A stretch of 64,000 nt of DNA from Bolinopsis microptera (taxonomy: Eukaryota > Ctenophora > Tentaculata > Lobata > Bolinopsidae). Made by a program: the position numbers and the translations under genes. The notes below the pieces were generated by a model. The model saw only the letters and a program-made list of their open reading frames with translations, made no database searches and was not told the origin of the DNA. Location of the stretch: NCBI RefSeq assembly GCF_026151205.1, contig NC_087072.1:12872169-12936168 (forward strand). The letters run 5' to 3'. Of this stretch, positions 8,949 to 60,091 are shown piece after piece; the first letter of the stretch is position 1, and the number at the start of each line of letters is the position of its first letter.

Positions 8949-10074
8949 TCGAGCTCCGATCGTCCTGTGACGAAGTAAGGACGAAGCCTGAGGTCCTCAG
9001 GTTACATCGACCACCGATTGAAAATTCAAAGATTTTTTGACATAAAGGTCAAATGTAAAACTAAAATCTTGATGTTGATTGATTGACGACGTCAATTTTT
9101 GAGCACAGCGCGAGCGCATGCGGAAAAGGACCGCGTAGCTAGTCAAGATTGATTATTCTGTGGCAAATAAAATTCTCTTTTTCTTAAATTATCTTTTTCT
9201 TAATTCTTGTTCATTGAAATATTACCGCCAGCGAGGAGTCGCAGCTGCGACTGCAAGCCGTGTTACCCACTTCCCTGTACTGTATTGTGATCAGCATGAG
9301 GTTAATCAAAGTAATGTGTATCACTCGCTTCACTCGATCCGAAATTAAAGTATATAATCCTACAACGCCAAGCTAGTAATAGAGTTTTATGAAAGCACTC
9401 TGGCCAAGTCAGTGGATTCTTTTTACCTAATTTTACCTCATCCCATTAAGGAACGCGCGCTGGGTAAGAAGAAACCTAGCTAGAGTGGAAGTCGGCGCCC
9501 TCATTAAATTTTTGGAGAAAATCGCTCGCCAAAATTTGTTGGACCAGGACGATGTCCTAGCCTGGCAGCTCATTGCGCGGCGCGTCACAACGAGCTTCGT
9601 TGTTCGTCGACGTGCGACGAGCAACGAGAAAAATTGTGTGGCGCGTCGAGTGGCACATCTTAACGGGGGATACGCGTATAAATTTCGATCGCTGACGTAC
9701 AGCGAGCAGCACAGCTGCAAATGGCGTCAGCTAGTAGGATTTCATCCTACAAGGCACATCGCGTTTACCTAGCTAACCAGGTCATTTCCGCCTCCGGCGG
9801 TCGCGCGCTACTGCAAGCGAGAGGGCTATAGTTAGAGCAACACATCGCGCCACAAGCCAAATATTTATCAACATCTTGACTAGCTACGCGGTCCTTTTCC
9901 GCATGCGCTCGCGCTGTGCTCAAAAATTGACGTCGTCAATCAATCAACATCAAGATTTTAGTTTTACATTTGACCTTTATGTCAAAAAATCTTTGAATTT
10001 TCAATCGGTGGTCGATGTTACCTGAGGACCTCAGGCTTCGTCCTTACTTCGTCACAGGACGATCGGAGCTCGAA
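8949..10074. mobile_element. Nested inverted-repeat element, arms about 200 bp
   Basis: Arms of about 200 bp (8949-9150 and 9879-10074) are near-perfect inverted copies: TTCGAGCTCCGATCGTCC at the left is mirrored by GGACGATCGGAGCTCGAA at the right. The middle is GC-rich and includes further small palindromes, such as around 9585-9630. A second outer pair (8599-8629 and 10084-10112) also mirrors. No target duplication and no transposase were found. Open frames across the middle on both strands are likely chance products of base composition. Confidence 0.75.
9785..9842 (-). repeat. GC-rich hairpin repeat H, partial copy
   Basis: On the minus strand this reads TTGCTCTAACTATAGCCC, then CTCTCGCTTGCAGTAGCGCG and CGACCGCCGGAGGCGG. 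That matches the insertion at 54843-54952 and the copy at 11675-11744. Only one end of the repeat is present here. Confidence 0.7.
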
Positions 10075-11074: not shown

Positions 11075-11674
11075 TAAAAGTTCACAATCATAATTATTAT
11101 TTAAAATTGCCTCTAATAGCTACTGATAATCAGCTTGATAGTCGTCTTCCAGCCAGTTTATCAGAAATAAATAAAATGCAGAACCTAACAAAAGGACTAA
11201 AATAACTCCAAGATATATTTCATGAAAATTACTAAATTTGCATTGGCGCTCGATTCCAAAGGATTTTTGTTAATGAAGCGTTGACAAAATGCGCGGCGCG
11301 CAAAAATTATCATTTGAAATTGTTTGTTGTTCAAACATATTTCATAAAATAATCTGTAATATATAGTTCTAATAGTGTATAAAAAAGAATAATCTCAAAA
11401 TATAACACTAAACAGAGCAAAAACGAGGATCGCGCAAAAATTATATCTATTTTGACAATTTCCGCGATTTTAAATAGGAACCATTTAAATATATGTAAAC
11501 AAAATACGCAAACCATTAAAATCTTGATCCATAAATTTTTAATTGTAGAGTCCCCGGTCAATAGTTTGCAAAAATAATTTTATATACGAAAATATAAAGA
11601 ATTTAAAAATTTATGGATCAATAAATTAACGGTTTGCGTATTTTGTTAATTATACTATATGTATTAACATTCGC

Positions 11675-11744
11675 TCTAACCAGAGCCCTCTCGCTTGCGT
11701 GAAACAAGCGCGGCACGCAGTACGCGTAGGCACATGGCTATGTG
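11675..11744 (+). repeat. GC-rich hairpin repeat H, shortened copy
   Basis: CGCTCTAACCAGAGCCCTCT followed by CGCTTGCGTGAAACAAGCGC and GTAGGCACATGGCTATGTGA. Compared with the copy at 54843-54952 it lacks about 40 bp in the middle (the GTAGCGCGCGACCGCC part). It lies in the loop of the foldback element. Confidence 0.8.
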
Positions 11745-12032
11745 AAATGTTTAGTGTTATATTTTGAGATTATTCTTTTTTATACACTATTAGAACTATA
11801 TATTCCCGTGCCATCTCTGCTGCCGGGTCATCCCAAGACTCTCCTAACCCACTGAAGGAAGACCAACTTCATGTCTCAGAGTATGGTCTAAAAAAACTTT
11901 GTGTTAACATAAAACTTGGCCTTTATCGTGCCTTTGGTATGAGATCCCATAGAATGCAGCCCTCTACTGCAGAGCGCTAGAATAACCCTAAAATTCAAAA
12001 ACAAACAAGCCTCACGAGATCAAGTCGCTGTA

Positions 12033-14375
12033 ATGTCCTGGAACATTCAGGACAGTACAGGAGACGGATCTAACAAATTTGAAAATAACGAATTTCTGAC
12101 AATCCTCAAACAAGCAAACATTCTATGTCTCCAAGAAACTAAGAAGCAGGTTAAAATCGAAGGATACCTTTCCTTTAATAGCAACCGCAAAAATTCTCGC
12201 TCAGGAGGGGTCTGCATTCTTGCTGAAAATGATTTAAGAAAAGGTGTTTCCTGTGTTCCTTGTAGTGAATCTGACGATATTATTGTTGTTAAACTTGACA
12301 AAAACTTTTTTAAGCTTGATTTTGATCTATTTTTAGTATGTTATTATATTAGCCCTGCATATTCGTCCTATGTCAAGAAATATCCAGACTATACTGCTAA
12401 GACCTTCTCTGCTCTTGACACCCTCTGTATTAGACTACGTCAAAAAGGAGAAGTTATCATGTGTGGCGATGCAAATGCAAGAACTGGAAAACTCCCAGAC
12501 TATATCCTCTCTTGTAATGCACCTGCCATGCATGACATCTATAATGATATTGGACTTGAACATGACATTGAAGAACCCAGAAACAACTCTGACCTGACTA
12601 TATCTGAACCCCACTGCCAACATTTTCTTGACATGGTTATTAATAACCAACTGAAAATTCTTAATGGGCGTACCCTCGGGGACACCACTGGAAAAATGAC
12701 CTGTCACAAATATAATGGAAGCAGTGTGGTCGATTATTTTGTAATCACCTCGTGGGCAAGAGATCATGTAAACTCTCTTCAAGTTAAAGAGTTTACATCA
12801 TACTCTGACCACTGTCCCTTAGTCTTGAAACTCACCACATTCGAACCATTTGTTGCCAACTTCCAGCTCCCAGACTTTTCTAATTTACCGTGTGGCTATA
12901 AGTGGGACAACAACAACTCCCACTTACTATTTAAAGCAGCCCTCAACTCGCCCGAAATTGTCCATAATCTGGAAAACATTGTAGCAAACGAATTTAGCGG
13001 CACCTTGGAGGGCAATAATGAACTGAACGATGCAATCACTAACTGTCTCCACAGTGCTGCTGATATAGCATTAAAAGTGAAAAAACCTCCTAAAAATTCT
13101 GCCCAAAAGAAATGGTTTGATCCACAAGTCAACTCCTCGAGACGCAACCTAAATAGGCTAGCAAACCGGCTAGGTAGTAAACACTGCAACAACATTCTCA
13201 GACGAGAATATTATAAGCAACGCAATAAGCACAGCAATCTTGTTAACAATAAGAAATTATCCTTTCTTAGGAAGCTAAATGAAGCTATTGAAGAGGGTCA
13301 TATTCTTGACTGGAAAAAATTTAAAAGGCTAAAACAAGAACATGACACTAGTCCCCTACTAGACAAATTCGATCTGGCTAGCTTTCATGATTTCTTTGCT
13401 TCCCTCTATAGTAAACCAGACCAGGAACCAGATCTCACTCACCACAATCACAGACATTACCCTGAACCACCAGATCTGGACATCCTAAACAAGCCCATAT
13501 CTGATTCTGAACTTACTTCCGCAATCAAAAAGCTCAAAAAGGGTAAAAGTTGCTCAAATGACTTGATCTCAAACGAGATGCTTCAGAGCCTAACTCCGCT
13601 TTGTTTCCAAGTCATCCTCAAAACATTCAACCACTCTCTGGTCTCAGGCTACTATCCATGGCATACCAGTATTATCACTCCTATCTATAAATCAGGCAAC
13701 CCCTTCAGCCCAGACAATTACAGAGCAATAGCAGTTGGCAGTTGTATGGGTAAGCTGTTCTCTAGCATCTTACTTGAACGTCTGTTACACTTCAAAAAGC
13801 TCTACTGTCCTGACCCAAAAGAACAGCTTGGATTTTCGAAAGGTGCCCAAACTAACGATCACGTTTTCACCCTCAAGACAGTAATTGACAAATACACAAA
13901 AGCTAAAAAAGCTCGTCTTTATGCATGCTTTGTTGATCTAAGAAAGGCCTTTGACACTGTATGTAGGGACCTCCTTCTGCACAAAATTACATGCCTTGGA
14001 ATAACCGGTAACTTCTTCAACTGCCTAAGTGATATGTACAAAAACTCTATTGCCCATATAAAAATTTCCAAACTCTTGTCGCCTAAAATTGATATTGGCA
14101 AAGGAACGGAGCAAGGACACCCCCTATCGCCAGACCTCTTTAAAATCTACATTAATGACTTTTCATCTCTCCTGAAATCTGTTGGTGACTATCCAGTTCT
14201 TGCTGACGTTCTGATATCACATCTGCTGTGGGCTGACGATCTTGTCCTTCTTGCTCTAAGTCCCGAGGCCTTGCAAGTCAATATCAACATTCTATTTGAT
14301 TTCTGTAACTCCATGGGCCTTGAAGTAAATATTAAGAAAAAAATGGATCGTTTACAGCAGCAAATACTGAGCTGA
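12033..14375 (+). CDS. LINE endonuclease-reverse transcriptase, N-terminal part
   Basis: 780 codons. The N-terminal third is an AP-like endonuclease that would nick the target DNA: SWNIQ start, CLQETKK near residue 31, CGDANAR near 144 and SYSDHCPL near 257. The reverse transcriptase follows from about residue 480: YRAIAVGS, QLGFSKGAQTNDHV, the catalytic CFVDLRKAFDTV near 633, GTEQGHPLSPDLF, and LLWADDLVLLA (catalytic ADD at 734-736). The frame then ends abruptly after NIKKK, where coding sequence seems to have been deleted next to an A-run; the rest of the protein continues in another frame from 14351. The copy cannot make a full protein, but most catalytic motifs look intact, so it is fairly young. 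Confidence 0.9.
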   Translation: MSWNIQDSTGDGSNKFENNEFLTILKQANILCLQETKKQVKIEGYLSFNSNRKNSRSGGVCILAENDLRKGVSCVPCSESDDIIVVKLDKNFFKLDFDLFLVCYYISPAYSSYVKKYPDYTAKTFSALDTLCIRLRQKGEVIMCGDANARTGKLPDYILSCNAPAMHDIYNDIGLEHDIEEPRNNSDLTISEPHCQHFLDMVINNQLKILNGRTLGDTTGKMTCHKYNGSSVVDYFVITSWARDHVNSLQVKEFTSYSDHCPLVLKLTTFEPFVANFQLPDFSNLPCGYKWDNNNSHLLFKAALNSPEIVHNLENIVANEFSGTLEGNNELNDAITNCLHSAADIALKVKKPPKNSAQKKWFDPQVNSSRRNLNRLANRLGSKHCNNILRREYYKQRNKHSNLVNNKKLSFLRKLNEAIEEGHILDWKKFKRLKQEHDTSPLLDKFDLASFHDFFASLYSKPDQEPDLTHHNHRHYPEPPDLDILNKPISDSELTSAIKKLKKGKSCSNDLISNEMLQSLTPLCFQVILKTFNHSLVSGYYPWHTSIITPIYKSGNPFSPDNYRAIAVGSCMGKLFSSILLERLLHFKKLYCPDPKEQLGFSKGAQTNDHVFTLKTVIDKYTKAKKARLYACFVDLRKAFDTVCRDLLLHKITCLGITGNFFNCLSDMYKNSIAHIKISKLLSPKIDIGKGTEQGHPLSPDLFKIYINDFSSLLKSVGDYPVLADVLISHLLWADDLVLLALSPEALQVNINILFDFCNSMGLEVNIKKKMDRLQQQILS

Positions 14376-53631: not shown

Positions 53632-54842
53632 TTACCATGTATTAGGGTCATCTCGATTTTGGAGGGATAGCAAGTGCTTTTTAAGGTTAGATTTAATAAC
53701 ACCTGACGAAGCTGATAAGTCTGAATTCTTGGAAGAACCCGGGATTATCAACCCATCTACATTAGCATCACATATTTCGAATACATAGGGGCTGAGGTCA
53801 TTCCAAATTTTCGTAGAGGTGTACAAAAAGTTCTGTTGGGAGATATCTAACCTCAGTAATGGGACAATCAGACGAAGTTTTTCATTTCTAGGACAGAACT
53901 TGAAAAGATCTTTAATCGACTGGGGGACATCAAATTTAAGAATTTTGAATAATTCCATAAATGTATGGTACATGTGCAGATTCTCCAGGTTCATAATTTT
54001 CTGCTCGGTGAATAGCGGTTTAGTGTGTTCAAGACAGTAGTTCTTGCTAGCCATATGTTCGTTATAAGTTCTTGAACGTGCACAGGTTAAATAGTATTCT
54101 TTATGATCAAAATTGGGAATGTTACCAAATAGCAGTCTTATACATCGTTTTTGAATTGCAAAGATTTTATTCAGCTTATGTTTAGGGATCCCACCCCAGC
54201 AACTTATACAATAGCTAAGATGTGACATAAAAAGAGCATTGTATAGTTTCAAATATTCAGATTTGGGAATGAATTTGCAAATTCTCTTAATCGATACAAT
54301 ACTGGAGTTCAGCTTTAAAGATAAATGATTAAGATGTGGTTCCCAGCTTAGCTGTTCGTCTATTATCACCCCAAGAAACTTTGTACATTGAACTTTTTCT
54401 AGCTTTTTTCCATCTATTAAAATCGTTAGATTCCTGTTAAAGGGCCGTGTTCTGGCACAGGTCTGTGTTGCTCTTGACAAACCTGGCTGAAAATGCATAT
54501 AACAACTTTTCCCTGCATTTATATGTAACTTGTTAGACTCCATATAGTTACTGACTTGTTTCATTACATGATTAGCTTTTTCAAAAGCTTCCTGTGCTGA
54601 ACTACCTATCACAAAAATATTTGTATCATCAGCAAACAGGACGAATTCAGCCAAGCTTGAGGAGCTCACAATATCATTTATATAAATCAGAAATAGTAGA
54701 GGTCCTAACACTGACCCCTGGGGTACACCATACTCAACTGAACACTTGTCCGACTTTTCAGTTTGAAAAGAAGTTACTTGGCTACGGTTTGTTAGATAGC
54801 TAGCAAGAGTTTTTAGTGCAATACCTCTTACTCCATAGTGTT
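53632..54842 (-). CDS. LINE ORF2 C-terminal part: RT palm to end
   Basis: 399 codons after the 110-bp insertion, in frame with the upstream part. It begins VRGIALKTLASYLTNRSQ, then YGVPQGSVLGPLLFLIYIND, LFADDTNIF (catalytic ADD), HINAGKSCYMHF and KFLGVIIDEQLSWEPHLNHL. The wording is that of CR1/L2/Jockey-group LINEs. The C-terminal part (LYNALFMSHLSYCISCWGG, IQKRCIRLLFG and IWNDLSPYVFE) is the normal end of these ORFs. It stops at 53632. No internal stop. Confidence 0.9.
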
Positions 54843-54952
54843 GCTCTAACCAGAGCCCTCTCGCTTGCAGTAGCGCGCGACCGCCGTAGGCGGCTATCCT
54901 ACTTGTGAAACAAGCGCGTCACGCAGTACGCGTAGGCACATGGCTATGTGAA
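54843..54952 (+). mobile_element. 110-bp GC-rich hairpin insertion (repeat H) with 11-bp duplication
   Basis: Flanked by TCCATAGTGTT at 54832-54842 and 54953-54963. Begins GCTCTAACCAGAGCCCTCTC and ends GGCACATGGCTATGTGAA. It contains several stems (GCTCTAACCAGAGC; CGCCGTAGGCG; CTTGTGAAACAAG; CATGGCTATG). Its minus strand GCTCTGGTTAGAGC resembles a tRNA D-arm. Related copies are at 9785 and 11675. It breaks LINE ORF2 within the RT. No tail or TIR typical of known classes. Confidence 0.8.
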
Positions 54953-57184
54953 TCCATAGTGTTCAAGTTTATGCAGGAGTTTATCGTGCTCAATTGTGTC
55001 AAATGCTTTACTTAGATCAATAAATATTCCAATTACATGATTTTTCTGTTCAATCTCATTAAGTATTTTATTGACAGAATAGTTTACGGCATGAGATGTT
55101 GAGTGTTGTTTTCTAAAACCAAATTGTCGATCATAAATCACGTTCATAGCACTGAGGTAATTATATAACCTATTATAGATTATTTTTTCAAGTATTTTTC
55201 CAAATATCGGTAATGTAGAAACAGGTCGATAGTTATCAAGGCATCGTGAGTCTCCTTTTTTATAAATTGGTGTAATAGAGCCCGTTTTAAGCTTGTTTGG
55301 AAAGACCCCATTGTCCAAGAACCAATTAAAGAATCTAGAGATATGACCAGACAGATAATTTACACTCTTTTTTAAGACTTTAACAGAGATATCACTTGCC
55401 TTCCCATTTTCAAGGCTACCAATGATTTTACTTATCTCTTCCTCGTCACAGGGGCTGAGAAAAAAAGAGTTCACTATTCTTTCTCTGCCCTTGAGGTATT
55501 GTTTAAACTTCGTCTTAATAAAATTGCCATCAGTTACCGTACGAGATGGTACAGAAGATTGAACTTTTGAATTAAGATTACGAGCAATAGACGAGAAGTA
55601 GATGTTAAATCCGTTAGCAATCTCACGGCGTTCAGTTACAATTCGACCATCAATTAAGAATGATGCTTTTATATCTTTTTTAGATTTACCCCTGAGTTCG
55701 TTAATCAATTCCCAGGTTTTTTTAATATTTCCTTTAGCAAGTTCAAATTTTTTTCCATAGTGGGCTTTTTTCGCAGATTTTATAGCTTTGTTTAGGATAG
55801 AACGATACTCCTTATACTTAAGATATACAGTTTCCTCACCTAATGGGTTGATTTTGGTACACGAAGCCTTCCATCGCTTGTAGTGAAAGCCTTTAGTAAA
55901 CACAGATTTAATTAACGCAGAAGTGATCCATGGATTCATCAATCTATTGCGTTTTGATTGAAAACCAGCAGTAGAGTCCAATTTGAAATTCAGTTCGATT
56001 TTTTCGTGGACAGTTTCGACAAATTTTTCAAAACCTTCCTCATCATACGAAAAGTTCGATCGGTAGATATCCCTTCCAATATCATTAAGGAAGCTTTCTA
56101 TATTAGACTCACAGTAATCATACTTAGGTTTAAGTTTGGTATCATTTGGACTCTCTTTAGTATTACACGATATGAAACAGAAGATTGGGTTATGATGGGA
56201 AATCTTGGATTCAAGAATTCCAGATCCTAAGACACGCTCAGTAGAGTTCACTAAAATATTATCAATTAAGCTTTCGTTGCAACCCGGCTTGGCATGGGTG
56301 GCAATCGATATCAAAGGGATTAAATTGTTACTGTAGATAGTTTGTTCAAATTCAGCTATGTTTCGTCCCTGGGCCAAAAGATCAACATTGAAGTCACCTG
56401 TCAAGGCTACATTATTAGACGGTAGGAATTTCATCAACACGTCAAGCTCAGCAAGTGCATCTAGAATATCACCACTAGGGGGCCTGTAGACAACACCAGC
56501 AATCTGTGGAACCTCTGTGTTAGTGATCTCAACAAAAAGTGTTTCAAGATTGTCAGAGCATTTACATAACTTTTCGATTCGGCTGTATTGGTACTTATTG
56601 TCAATATATACACCAAGGCCACTACCTTTCTTTTTCCCATCAGTTTTGGAGTTATACTCACTGCTGTAACCATCAATTTTGTATAAATCTTTATTTTCCT
56701 CATCAATGTTTGTTTCAGCTAGCGCAATAACTGCAAATTTCTCATCATATTGACTCATATCAGTAATAAAGCTGTCAAAGTTAGATGCGTTCCCATCAAT
56801 GTTGTTAAACACAATAGATATAAACGGCTTGTTATGGTTAAGTATGTTTTTTGACAGCCGGTTGAAATTTGTCATGTTATAAGACCTACAGTCTTTTAGA
56901 ATGTTTGAAATAGTCTCCATATCTTTGTCTCTTTCTACAGTGTTGGGATCATATTTGTCATAAATAATTGAGTTGAAAGGATTGTACCTTTGGGATTTGA
57001 AGGCGAAACATTGACTGCAGTGCCACATTTGTTTAACATGGTCAAATTTAAAGCTCTGTTCAGAACATTTGGCATGATATATTGTATCGCAACACTCACA
57101 TATTATGACTTTATGATGGCTTAGTACATTGCTATCACAACCTGGACATCTCTCTCTTGTAATATTAAAGTTTATTGAGGTCAT
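54953..57184 (-). CDS. LINE ORF2 N-terminal part: PHD-like finger, APE endonuclease, RT start
   Basis: 744 codons of LINE sequence. Residues 13-59 form a C4HC3 PHD-like finger (CPGC, ICECC, YHAKC, WHCSQC). Residues about 105-345 are an AP-like endonuclease: FNNIDGNASNFD, AETNIDEENKD, GVVYRPPSGD, LTGDFNVDLL, SLIDNILVN and SKISHHNPIF (the usual SDH is SHH here). RT begins near 580: TPIYKKGD, DNYRPVSTLPIFGKILEK, RQFGFRKQHSTSHAV and the catalytic FIDLSKAFDTIEHDKLL, up to HYG where the 110-bp insertion cuts it. Its ATG overlaps the ORF1 stop (ATGA, 57181-57184), suggesting translation by termination-reinitiation. With the second part the protein is about 1,143 residues. Confidence 0.9.
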
Positions 57185-58236
57185 ATCGGTAAGATATCAC
57201 CCCTACTACCCCTACTTAGGGCACTCCTATAGTCACCATTTCCACCTTTAAATCTTTCCGTGGACTGACTTCCACCACGTTGTACAATACATCGTTTTAT
57301 ACTCATGCAAAATATTTTCAGGCCTTCTCTTCCGAGATGTACAACATCATTGACCAATGGTGTGCCATCACGTGAGAATCGACCATACTTAGAAGGCATG
57401 CATCCGTTAACAGAACCTAGTACAGAGTTATCTATAATAAACATGTTTTTCCTATTATAAACCATGTCGACAATTAAACTGTTTAACTCCCCTATACGTG
57501 AGTTAACAAACTGTGATTTAGTGGGCAAGAGTAGACTAATATGAACTTTACTATTAGGATAAAATTGCTGAATTTCACTACATTTCTTCTTAAGCTTAGC
57601 AATAAGTGTTCTAGTAGATGGTCTGTTGGAATCATCCCGAATATCATTGATTCCCGTGTGTATAACAATGTTCCGATAAGGGCCTATGTTTTTCGGAGCA
57701 GGAATATCGTCAATTTTAGCAGCCCACATTCGCTTACCAGGAACCCATTTTCCGAGAGTTCCAACATCTTTACCAAATTTAATGTATTTAGTGTTTGAGT
57801 CCCCAATTAAAACTGTGCTATTTTTGTAGTAAGGCGCAATATGCCTAAAGGTAAAGCTGTACCTCACAGAATTTTTCTCATCAGATTCTTCTTCATCTTC
57901 TTCATTAGTGAGAGGTTCAATACCATGATTCCAGATTTCCTGGGACAACCTGGACATCACGTACACACTTCCATCTTTGAGCTTTAAGGACTTTTCAGTC
58001 GACTTATGAGTGAACTTTATTGTGCGTTCTTCACCAAGAGACACAGTGACTATTATTGATTCAGGGTCAATAAGTACCTCATTGTCACAGTGCTGAGGGA
58101 TATGGCTACTGTTGCCTGTATATCTTGTTACAAGGCAAGAGTTCAGCCAGCTCTTCCTATTGGGGAGAGAGGGGCGCACACAGTCCAAAAGATCTTGTAT
58201 CTCTACTGGAGTTTCCTTTGCCTGATGATATGCTCC
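57181..58236 (-). CDS. LINE ORF1 C-terminal part: AlkB-like dioxygenase plus SGNH esterase
   Basis: 351 codons of LINE sequence (an ORF start at 58278 lies in the insertion). Numbering from that start: residues 15-147 read as the main AlkB domain: GAYHQAKETPVEIQDLL, then IPQHCDNE with iron ligands H63 and D65, TVSLGEERTIKF, LKDGSVYVMS, IWNHGIEP with ligand H118, and VRYSFTFRHI with 2-oxoglutarate/fold arginines R139 and R145. Residues 154-320 are an SGNH esterase: VLIGDSN (Ser161), VIHTGINDI (209-213) and VNDVVHLG with the D311-x-x-H314 pair. Esterases are known in CR1-like ORF1; AlkB here is unusual. AlkB enzymes remove alkyl groups from DNA or RNA; a role on LINE RNA or cDNA is inference. 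Stop overlaps the ORF2 start. Confidence 0.85.
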   Translation of the reverse strand, partial: GAYHQAKETPVEIQDLLDCVRPSLPNRKSWLNSCLVTRYTGNSSHIPQHCDNEVLIDPESIIVTVSLGEERTIKFTHKSTEKSLKLKDGSVYVMSRLSQEIWNHGIEPLTNEEDEEESDEKNSVRYSFTFRHIAPYYKNSTVLIGDSNTKYIKFGKDVGTLGKWVPGKRMWAAKIDDIPAPKNIGPYRNIVIHTGINDIRDDSNRPSTRTLIAKLKKKCSEIQQFYPNSKVHISLLLPTKSQFVNSRIGELNSLIVDMVYNRKNMFIIDNSVLGSVNGCMPSKYGRFSRDGTPLVNDVVHLGREGLKIFCMSIKRCIVQRGGSQSTERFKGGNGDYRSALSRGSRGDILPI

Positions 58237-58801
58237 TATATCCACCAGCGTGCGCTTTTTCGCATAGCGGGCTCTCACCAGCCCGCTGTCAAAGGGCCCG
58301 ATATCTCTACAGCCCGCTCATGATATAGCCCGCTAACAAGTGACATTTAATTTGACCAGTAGCAATATAGCCCGGAGTTCTCTAAAATATTTTCAGTTTC
58401 TGTATCGTCTCCATGTGAAATTCCTTATTACACTGACTATATAATACATTTTATTTTTGTGTCCGGTAGGGCTGCTCATGCAGACATGATACTTTGATTT
58501 ATATCAAAGTTATTATAACACACTACAAGTACATAATACACATCAGCACTATAATCCCCCTATATTATTGATATTCATCGTCACTGACATTACATTCATT
58601 ATTCCCACGGCCCAGGAATGCAGTGCATCTCCAGCCCCTATATACGACACAGCCCTTTATGATTGGCTTACATTGAACACGTGACGTGTTACCATGGTTA
58701 CAACAATAAGTGGCGACCTTTTCTAGAGTTGACTTTTATACAAGCTCCATTGTTTATTTATAAAATTATATATTAACTGTAATACGCCCGCTGGTGGATA
58801 T
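58237..58801. mobile_element. 0.56-kb inverted-repeat insertion splitting the AlkB domain
   Basis: Left tip TATATCCACCAGCGTGCG and right tip CGCCCGCTGGTGGATATA are inverted copies. Near the left end AGCCCGCT recurs several times. About 58600-58720 carries promoter-like boxes: TATATACG, ATTGGCTT (inverted CCAAT), CACGTGAC and the RFX-like GTTACCATGGTTAC. No ORF. Exact junctions and any TA duplication are ambiguous because both flanks are TATA-rich. Confidence 0.65.
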
Positions 58802-58804
58802 AAT

Positions 58805-58981
58805 CCACATCACCTCGACCCGCGGGCGGAAAAATCGTATAGCACTCGGGCCCGATGGGCCCTCCGTGCTATACGAAAATATGTCCTCCTCGGGCTAGCG
58901 CCCTCGGGGACATATGAAATATTGCACGCGCGTGCGCGTGCAATATTTTGTTCCGCCCGCGAGTCTCCGGTGATATGTATA
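58805..58981. mobile_element. GC-rich palindromic element next to the AlkB breakpoint
   Basis: Ends ATCACCTCGACCCGCGGGCG and, read inward from the right, ATCACCGGAGACTCGCGGGC. The middle contains two long perfect-looking stems: around 58836-58880 (CGTATAGCAC ... GTGCTATACG) and 58917-58950 (AAATATTGCACGCGC ... GCGTGCAATATTT). It is adjacent to, or inserted in, the end of the previous element. Non-coding. Confidence 0.65.
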
Positions 58982-60091
58982 TGTATACCAGTATCCATGT
59001 TCACCAAAGTAGATGACATCCCTGCTGCCACCAACCGAAGAAAAATCTGCACTACTGTCCTCCAGCAGCTTTATAAGTTTGCTGTGAAGCTCAACAGGCA
59101 CTATATCTTCCTGATAAGTTATATAAGGGTCACATGCAGGGTCTATAGAAATTTGAGATGGAGCAAAGTGAGGGGAAGTAGTGTTAGGGGTCATAACGAT
59201 AGAGTCGTTGTTGGGTAGTTCACCTTCATCAAATTTCTGTGTGGACGTTGAGGGACAAACATGATCATTGATCTTTTCCAATTGCACTTTGATCTGGGTC
59301 ATCAGGTTATCAACATGATCGAAAGTACTGCTGTTGGTCGGGGGTTGCTCTGTAATAGGAATACTTTTGAGAGAGTCCTTCAGGTCATCAATCTCCTGTT
59401 TGAGAGAATAACTGGTTGTCTCAAGAGCTGAGCCACTCTCCTTTACTTTCGTAAGTACATCCTTGATAACAGCTATGTCTTCAGTGATGTCTTCAATTCC
59501 AGTTACTAATCGTTCTGTTTTTTTGGAGTGATCTTTGTAACTGTCCTCCTTGAGTATGAGGTGTTTGATATGCTCGTTGAAGAACTCTATGGTTGTTGTA
59601 CTATCTTTGAGGTCCTCATTACATTTGGATATCTTAGCAATGTTGCTAAAGAATTCTGTTAAGGCTTTGGATTTATCCTCCTCCTTCAATCTTCTTGTGT
59701 AAGGAAAGATAAAGCAGTCCGGGCACTTCCAGGAAGTGCTGAGCTTCCTCAGAGAAGCTATTGTGAGGCCAGCCAGGTTAACACAGGTGGCATGGAAGGT
59801 CTGCTTACAATTAACACATAAGATTGCGGGGTTCTTTGACTCTACAAAGCAGGGACACTTAGAGAGTAGCGTGCCTGGGATCGCTGCTGGTTCGTTGCTC
59901 TCTACATCAACAAAGTCTCCGTCAGATGTTAGATCTGCATCTAGATCTGTGTTCCTACTATGCAATCTGCTAGTGACTTTTCGGCTTAAAACAGGGCTTG
60001 AAATAGGGGTGGATCCAGCTGACTTGCACCCTCGAGACGTGGCATTAAAGAGGTCCGATCTCCTGTCGAGTTTCTTGTCGTTCCCTTTCAT
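58982..60091 (-). CDS. LINE ORF1 N-terminal part: PHD finger, coiled coil, start of AlkB domain
   Basis: 370 codons. Start ATG at 60091 (MKGNDKKLDRRSD). A Ser-rich basic region precedes a PHD-type C4HC3 finger at residues 79-126 (KCPCF, ILCVNCKQTFHATC, WKCPDC). Residues about 135-290 are predicted coiled coil (NEDLKDSTTTIEFFNEHI, LKQEIDDLKDSLKS, IKVQLEKINDH). After a Ser/Pro linker, residues 325-370 read YQEDIVPVELHSKLIKLLED, RDVIYFGEHGYWYT, the N-terminal part of an AlkB domain, before the insertion cuts it. The last 28 residues of the open frame come from inserted DNA. Joined in order with 57181-58236, ORF1 would be about 720 residues, long for a LINE ORF1. Confidence 0.85.

Follow-up and report, generated by a model that had tools for sequence, protein, structure and literature searches.

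In a 64-kb window of the Bolinopsis microptera genome (contig NC_087072.1), by which we mean the whole stretch of DNA that was analyzed, the minus strand carries a long interspersed nuclear element (LINE) with two open reading frames (ORFs), located between approximately 53.6 and 60.1 kb. The ORF1 of this element encodes a PHD finger, a coiled coil, a dioxygenase domain of the AlkB family and a putative SGNH esterase domain (Table 1). The ATG from which the protein (ORF1p) was translated, at position 60091, matches the start of the Mnemiopsis protein P0011 in the alignment. This particular copy of the element is dead, being interrupted in both ORF1 and ORF2. An earlier note on this DNA, made from the sequence alone, had proposed the four-domain layout of ORF1; beyond what that note reported, we found that the AlkB domain is split by an insert and that ORF2 is likewise interrupted.

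Table 1. Features of the LINE copy in the window (coordinates are those of the window)
Feature	Coordinates	Strand	Basis
ORF1 5' piece, starting at the ATG (60091) and 370 codons long: PHD finger, coiled coil, N-terminal part of AlkB	58982..60091	-	reading frame and translation
PHD finger (C4HC3), ORF1p residues 79-126	59714..59857	-	spacing, Pfam, predicted model with Foldseek
Coiled-coil helix, ORF1p residues 182-242	59366..59548	-	predicted model, heptad test
AlkB, N-terminal part, residues 320-370 (CDPYITY to YFGEHGYWYT)	58982..59134	-	alignment with relatives
Foreign insert within AlkB, palindrome-rich, at most 745 bp, not element DNA	58237..58981	.	similarity break against relatives
ORF1 3' piece (351 codons plus stop codon), with the AlkB C-terminal part and the SGNH esterase	57181..58236	-	reading frame, Pfam
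AlkB, C-terminal part (HCD, 58092-58084; second His, 57927-57925; RYSFTFR, 57864-57844)	57844..58236	-	Pfam PF13532, E 9.7e-19
SGNH/GDSL esterase domain (GDSN, 57804-57793; GIND, 57654-57643; NDVVHLG, 57351-57331)	57277..57822	-	motif blocks, family profile
ATGA overlap (ORF2 ATG, 57184-57182; ORF1 TGA, 57183-57181)	57181..57184	-	sequence
ORF2 first piece, with PHD-like finger, APE-type endonuclease and the beginning of the reverse transcriptase; 3' end is insert	54944..57184	-	Pfam
Second PHD-like C4HC3 finger, N end of ORF2 (C13 to C59)	57008..57148	-	sequence; Pfam E 0.067, below cut-off
Small insert in ORF2, about 110 bp, between AACACTATGG direct repeats (54954-54963 and 54833-54842)	54843..54953	.	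direct repeats
ORF2 second piece, with the remainder of the reverse transcriptase and the C-terminal region; 5' end is insert	53632..54918	-	RVT_1, E 7e-15

Domain architecture of ORF1

The eight ligands of a C4HC3 finger (C79, C81, C92, C95, H100, C103, C123 and C126) occur with the characteristic spacing in the frame that opens at the ATG, exactly where the earlier note had located the PHD cysteines. The Pfam PHD profile matches this segment with an E-value of 1.3e-4 and 22.3 bits, slightly below the cut-off of 24, and PHD fingers rank first in a Foldseek search with the predicted model of the ORF1 5' piece (3zpv, E 0.015, probability 0.99), with no PHD match in that search reaching E ≤ 0.001. 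The coiled coil likewise holds up: the model contains a helix in which 71% of the a and d positions in the best heptad register are hydrophobic, against 28% overall, a value that was equaled in none of 5000 shuffles.

The AlkB domain has the double-stranded beta-helix fold of the family. Its C-terminal part combines the HxD...H iron ligands with a 2-oxoglutarate (2OG) motif in which Ser replaces Asn, and also reads HCDNE and NHG. Numbered in the stop-to-stop frame, the five ligands are H76, D78, H131, R152 and R158, which correspond, at a constant offset, to the H63, D65, H118, R139 and R145 of the note. Farther downstream in the same frame lie the GDS, GIND and DVVH motifs that had been proposed as an SGNH triad, and by its Ser, Gly, Asn and Asp-xx-His blocks, the domain is classified as an SGNH/GDSL hydrolase. 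Its match to Pfam is weak (E 0.032), and the profile built from the family finds as its best solved match an 'ORF1-encoded protein' (4c1b, E 1.3e-6), which we take to be the ORF1 protein of the zebrafish element ZfL2-1. Of the three Pfam matches that the note had anticipated, that to AlkB was therefore obtained with high significance, and the failure of the AlkB profile that it had named as fatal did not occur, whereas the PHD match fell under the cut-off and the SGNH match was weak.

AlkB and SGNH domains in relatives

The relatives of this ORF1 were pooled from three protein searches into a set of 248 proteins; the first of these searches yielded 130 relatives, the best 120 of which were considered, with 36-70% identity among the matches listed. 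A protein was counted as containing both domains when each profile matched with an independent E-value below 0.01, a definition under which partial AlkB domains are included. The fusion is the rule in this set: 175 of the 248 proteins match both profiles, 45 have the SGNH domain with fewer than 40 residues upstream, and 27 that lack SGNH are fragments and non-LINE AlkBs. The one protein with SGNH and at least 40 upstream residues in which AlkB is missing is P0011 from Mnemiopsis, which retains, at its join, the TFRH from the C-terminal end of AlkB, so that the absence is read as a probable splice made by the gene model. The search with the SGNH profile (best 120 of 125 matches) contributed 90 additional proteins, among which 49 also have AlkB, 41 have fewer than 40 residues upstream, and none is a long SGNH protein free of AlkB.

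In four proteins (P0046, P0067, P0077 and P0079), a single uninterrupted frame encodes AlkB together with a PHD pattern and the blocks of SGNH, which argues that AlkB belongs to the LINE and is not an inserted host gene, the outcome that the earlier note had named as a refutation. In Pfam searches with these proteins, AlkB scores above the cut-off, PHD scores below it (E 1.5e-4 to 3.8e-3), and GDSL is not listed at E ≤ 0.1; accordingly, the SGNH assignment in the four proteins rests on the family profile and on the model of P0077. Across the scanned relatives, the Pfam SGNH matches are below the cut-off, the best being that of P0071 (E 1.1e-6, 29.8 bits versus 32.9), and precomputed Pfam annotation assigns PF13472 to P0049, P0071 and P0110. 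The connection to ORF2 is apparent in a Mnemiopsis leidyi gene model, P0037, in which the end of AlkB is followed by SGNH and then by a LINE endonuclease that is 68% identical to that of the window ORF2.

The AlkB-SGNH unit is constant among the relatives, and the N-terminal module is variable. Classified by simple sequence patterns, the 66 proteins with at least 100 residues before AlkB include 36 with a 'GKGN' module, 4 with the full PHD pattern and 26 with neither, several of which look truncated. The GKGN-like module is conserved and stands in for the PHD finger in many relatives (e.g., P0049, P0068 and P0071); no clear Pfam match to it was found in the two proteins scanned, P0068 and P0071. 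A relative of the SGNH family, P0191, is labeled as a protein from a Cytophagales metagenome-assembled genome and probably represents eukaryotic contamination of the bin.

Conservation of the active sites

All five AlkB ligands are present in 93 of the 104 alignment rows that cover them, and the five SGNH residues in 115 of 118. Among 88 rows picked via the arginine-motif pattern, the AlkB ligand columns rank 2, 13, 19, 23 and 25 out of 184 for conservation. In the same rows, the positions aligned to F102, R110, Y122 and E175 of ALKBH2, which presumably face the substrate, are retained in 83, 79, 86 and 84 cases, respectively. This pattern of ligand conservation supports catalysis by the AlkB domain. 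The RKK loop of ALKBH2 binds double-stranded DNA, and the LINE family lacks it: the loop at the corresponding site is acidic, with a mean charge of −2.8 versus +3 (85 of the 88 rows parsed, some with rough boundaries). Because acidic loops take the place of the basic one, duplex DNA is disfavored as the main substrate.

Four relatives, P0083, P0085, P0112 and P0081, have lost AlkB ligands and retained the esterase residues, and provide a natural test of the need for AlkB activity. Three of them (P0081, P0083 and P0085) cluster in the larger of the two trees described below with a support of 85; P0112 is not among the rows of that tree.

Phylogeny of the AlkB domain

The rows for phylogenetic analysis were chosen by the arginine-motif and GDSN patterns, with the NSC[LI] pattern additionally required for the trees, giving 79 LINE rows for a quick tree, 73 for the comparison of AlkB with SGNH and 34 for a careful tree, next to the 88 used for conservation. 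Trees of the two domains from the 73 proteins have 36 of 70 splits in common, compared with a mean of 0.2 and a maximum of 1 in 50 label shuffles, and their distances are strongly correlated (Mantel r 0.86, a value not reached in any of 1000 permutations). Taken together, these two results imply that AlkB and SGNH diversified together.

In the quick tree, which contains 17 other rows besides the LINE sequences, the latter form a single clade with a support of 77. The careful tree, with 34 of these LINE rows and 16 of the 17 others (P0158 was omitted as a long branch), recovers the same single clade with support 93/85, in 930 of 1000 bootstrap trees. Four of the non-LINE rows are cut pieces of solved chains, and the cellular rows, which are few, came from the same profile search. 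With that sampling, the LINE clade joins eight short standalone AlkBs (P0141, P0142, P0144-P0146, P0148, P0149 and P0151; support 100/99 among themselves) in 710 of 1000 bootstrap trees, with support 71/38. The eight are the closest group in the careful tree and were considered as a source of the domain, but the branch that unites them with the LINE clade has only this support. The note had suggested an AlkB tree as the way to recognize a single capture; the LINE rows form one clade in both trees, and a single capture of AlkB by the LINE lineage is favored by these trees but not proven. No confirmed relative emerged when viral contigs were scanned with the alignment of the LINE family, with that of the eight standalone AlkBs and with P0145 and P0151.

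ORF2 and the inserts

The ATGA junction of the two ORFs has a layout that is compatible with stop-start re-initiation. The first piece of ORF2 matches RVT_1 with an E-value of 8.3e-18, and upstream of the reverse transcriptase, where an endonuclease is expected, there are matches to Exo_endo_phos (E 3.3e-4) and Exo_endo_phos_2 (E 0.0043), both below the curated cut-off. By its reverse transcriptase and APE-like endonuclease domains, the element is classified as an APE-type LINE, i.e., a non-long terminal repeat (LTR) retrotransposon. Because ORF2 also starts with a C4HC3 PHD-like finger, both ORF1p and the ORF2 protein may bind chromatin. No second full copy of the LINE was found within the window; a diverged remnant of a different LINE reverse transcriptase, 31% identical to the window ORF2, lies at 13494-14006 on the plus strand.

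Within ORF1, coding similarity ends at YFGEHGYWYT and restarts at GAYHQAKETP (58236), a point across which the relatives are continuous. Strong GC-rich palindromes occupy one side of the intervening insert, whose interior includes a segment with the ends TATATCCACCAGCG and CGCTGGTGGATATA; a non-autonomous DNA element may therefore be present in the insert, nested together with a second element. The small insert in ORF2 is also palindrome-rich and is flanked by 10-bp direct repeats, and similar pieces occur at 9784-9843 and 11673-11746.

Discussion

The computations performed here establish the domain order, the fold, the conservation of the ligands and the joint inheritance of AlkB and SGNH in this ORF1 family, and favor a single capture of the dioxygenase. 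The recurrent fusion with a mostly retained active site suggests that the nucleic acid of the element is cleaned by its own protein. We consider with moderate confidence that the window contains a decayed APE-type LINE in whose ORF1p a captured AlkB domain became joined to SGNH and would strip methyl groups from the RNA or cDNA of the element itself. LINE ORF1 proteins are usually regarded as RNA-packaging, and 1-methyladenine and 3-methylcytosine block reverse transcriptases. Since ORF1p can be expected to coat RNA, since these two modifications are obstacles to copying, and since the fold and the substrate-side residues resemble those of ALKBH2/3, the favored function is to dealkylate RNA or single-stranded cDNA of the element itself. 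Under this model, the coiled coil would multimerize ORF1p on the RNA of the element, as in other LINEs, and AlkB, with Fe(II) and 2-oxoglutarate, would remove methyls of the 1-methyladenine and 3-methylcytosine type from base-pairing positions of the RNA or of single-stranded cDNA, which would keep reverse transcription from stalling or becoming error-prone. As has been suggested for the esterases of other LINEs, the esterase might mediate association with membranes or lipids. The PHD-type fingers in both ORFs might assist in chromatin targeting.

Several findings weigh against this interpretation. The copy in the window is dead, and 11 of the 104 covering rows fall short of the full ligand set. 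In P0011 the domain is absent, and in five rows (P0023, P0105, P0106, P0111 and P0114) there are gaps at the iron sites, with the second arginine replaced by Trp in P0106. In P0083 and P0085, the first His is replaced by Gln, the second His by Tyr and the first Arg by Ser (the shorter P0112 likewise has Tyr for the second His and Ser for Arg); both arginines are substituted in P0081, and the second arginine in P0007 and P0057. Given these substitutions, AlkB activity may be dispensable in P0007, P0057, P0081, P0083 and P0085. Furthermore, 75 of 88 rows have Thr or Ser at the position of ALKBH2 N159, and the 2OG motif is RxSxTxR instead of RxNxTxR. Finally, the LINE clade groups with ALKBH2/3 and P0153 in only 59 of 1000 bootstrap trees, with the few cellular rows that were included; with the LINE clade placed apart from ALKBH2/3 in this tree, kinship offers no basis for transferring the substrate of these enzymes to it.

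The main rival to repair of the element's own nucleic acid is that AlkB erases host methyl marks from LINE RNA (N6-methyladenosine, m6A, or N1-methyladenosine, m1A) or DNA (N6-methyladenine, 6mA), and thus evades silencing; we consider it unlikely. In its favor is the observation that, in mouse, loss of Alkbh1 leads to more 6mA on young L1 elements, together with repressive marks and silencing (PMC4982230), which slightly raises its probability and lowers that of self-repair. There is also a precedent in an orchid LTR element with an AlkB that demethylates in vitro (PMC9289625), m6A on human L1 RNA alters mobility (PMC7873242), and the PHD finger would carry ORF1p to chromatin. The same human study, however, reports that removal of m6A by ALKBH5 lowers L1 mobility, the opposite of what an m6A version of this explanation needs (PMC7873242), and the closest solved sequences and folds are those of ALKBH2/3, not those of ALKBH5, FTO or human ALKBH1.

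A role of the AlkB fold as a mere scaffold, that is, a nucleic-acid-binding or dimerization platform for the esterase with no need for catalysis, appears distinctly improbable. Despite their missing iron ligands, P0083 and P0085 are recognized by the AlkB profile (E 4.9e-7 and 4.8e-8) and have SGNH blocks in place, but a pure scaffold leaves unexplained why the five ligands are kept in the great majority of rows and rank so high in conservation within the domain, so that such a role suits only those members that lost them. An artefact, in which a host AlkB gene or pseudogene lies by chance in or beside a LINE, as the interrupted state of this dead copy might suggest, is hardly credible, given that insertion of a host gene is ruled out by the uninterrupted relatives, the frequency of the fusion and the congruent trees, and that relatives with AlkB and SGNH regularly apart were not found among the 248 proteins.

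Esterase and PHD domains are reportedly known from the ORF1 of CR1 elements through the work of Kapitonov and Jurka. The type IV esterase ORF1 of CR1/L2 LINEs, such as zebrafish ZfL2-1, resembles the ORF1 described here in having an SGNH domain with GDS, Asn and DxxH, and differs in having no AlkB. In a survey of 448 Jockey-superfamily elements, the parts of ORF1 are RRM, CCHC, transposase-22, PHD and esterase, and esterase-type ORF1s are confined to two vertebrate groups (PMC4120745), whereas the relatives of the window family include the ctenophore proteins P0011 and P0037. As in the window element, PHD fingers are reported in that survey for the N terminus of ORF1 in CR1 and L2 lineages, and also for the start of ORF2, but the PHD ORF1s in its Table 1 contain PHD alone or with RRM, CCHC or transposase-22, and not with an oxygenase or esterase (PMC4120745). 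Its text contains no hit for AlkB, oxygenase, dioxygenase or 2OG, although 24 elements (L2_1, CR1_2) with mostly unassigned ORF1s may include the domain (PMC4120745). As far as that source goes, the window layout is that of a LINE ORF1 with a captured dioxygenase, absent from the layouts surveyed.

Other mobile elements also encode AlkB. A Ty3/Gypsy element of the orchid Phalaenopsis likewise carries a dioxygenase of this family, but it is an LTR element with a separate ORF that derives from a recent capture of plant ALKBH5 (PMC9289625), in contrast to the fusion within a LINE ORF1 and the diverged family seen here; by sequence, the window AlkB is not ALKBH5-like, and it does not reside in an LTR element. 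From human ALKBH2/ALKBH3, the window family is set apart by the acidic loop in place of RKK and by its location in ORF1. AlkB domains of RNA viruses and the standalone AlkBs of giant viruses (Foldseek against a viral library gave AlkB matches, e.g., Megavirus baoshan, 28% identity) lie outside retroelement ORF1s. We found no description of AlkB in a LINE ORF1 in the openly licensed literature, most of it judged from titles and the opening lines of abstracts; Repbase, Dfam and subscription journals, which are outside that search, may know it.

It is possible, and we propose it tentatively, that a diverse LINE lineage took up AlkB once and kept it as a built-in demethylase protecting its RNA, cDNA or DNA against damage or host methyl marks, with a few branches having lost the active site. 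This would be a second case of AlkB uptake by a retroelement, in an element class different from that of the orchid Gypsy. If true, a conserved ORF1p dealkylase would imply that base methylation or alkylation really limits LINE copying, a limit that can be tested because one and the same ORF1 family comprises members that retain the active site as well as a few that have lost it. It would also constitute a retrotransposon-encoded counter-defense acting on base modification, for which the ligand-less branches would be natural knock-outs.

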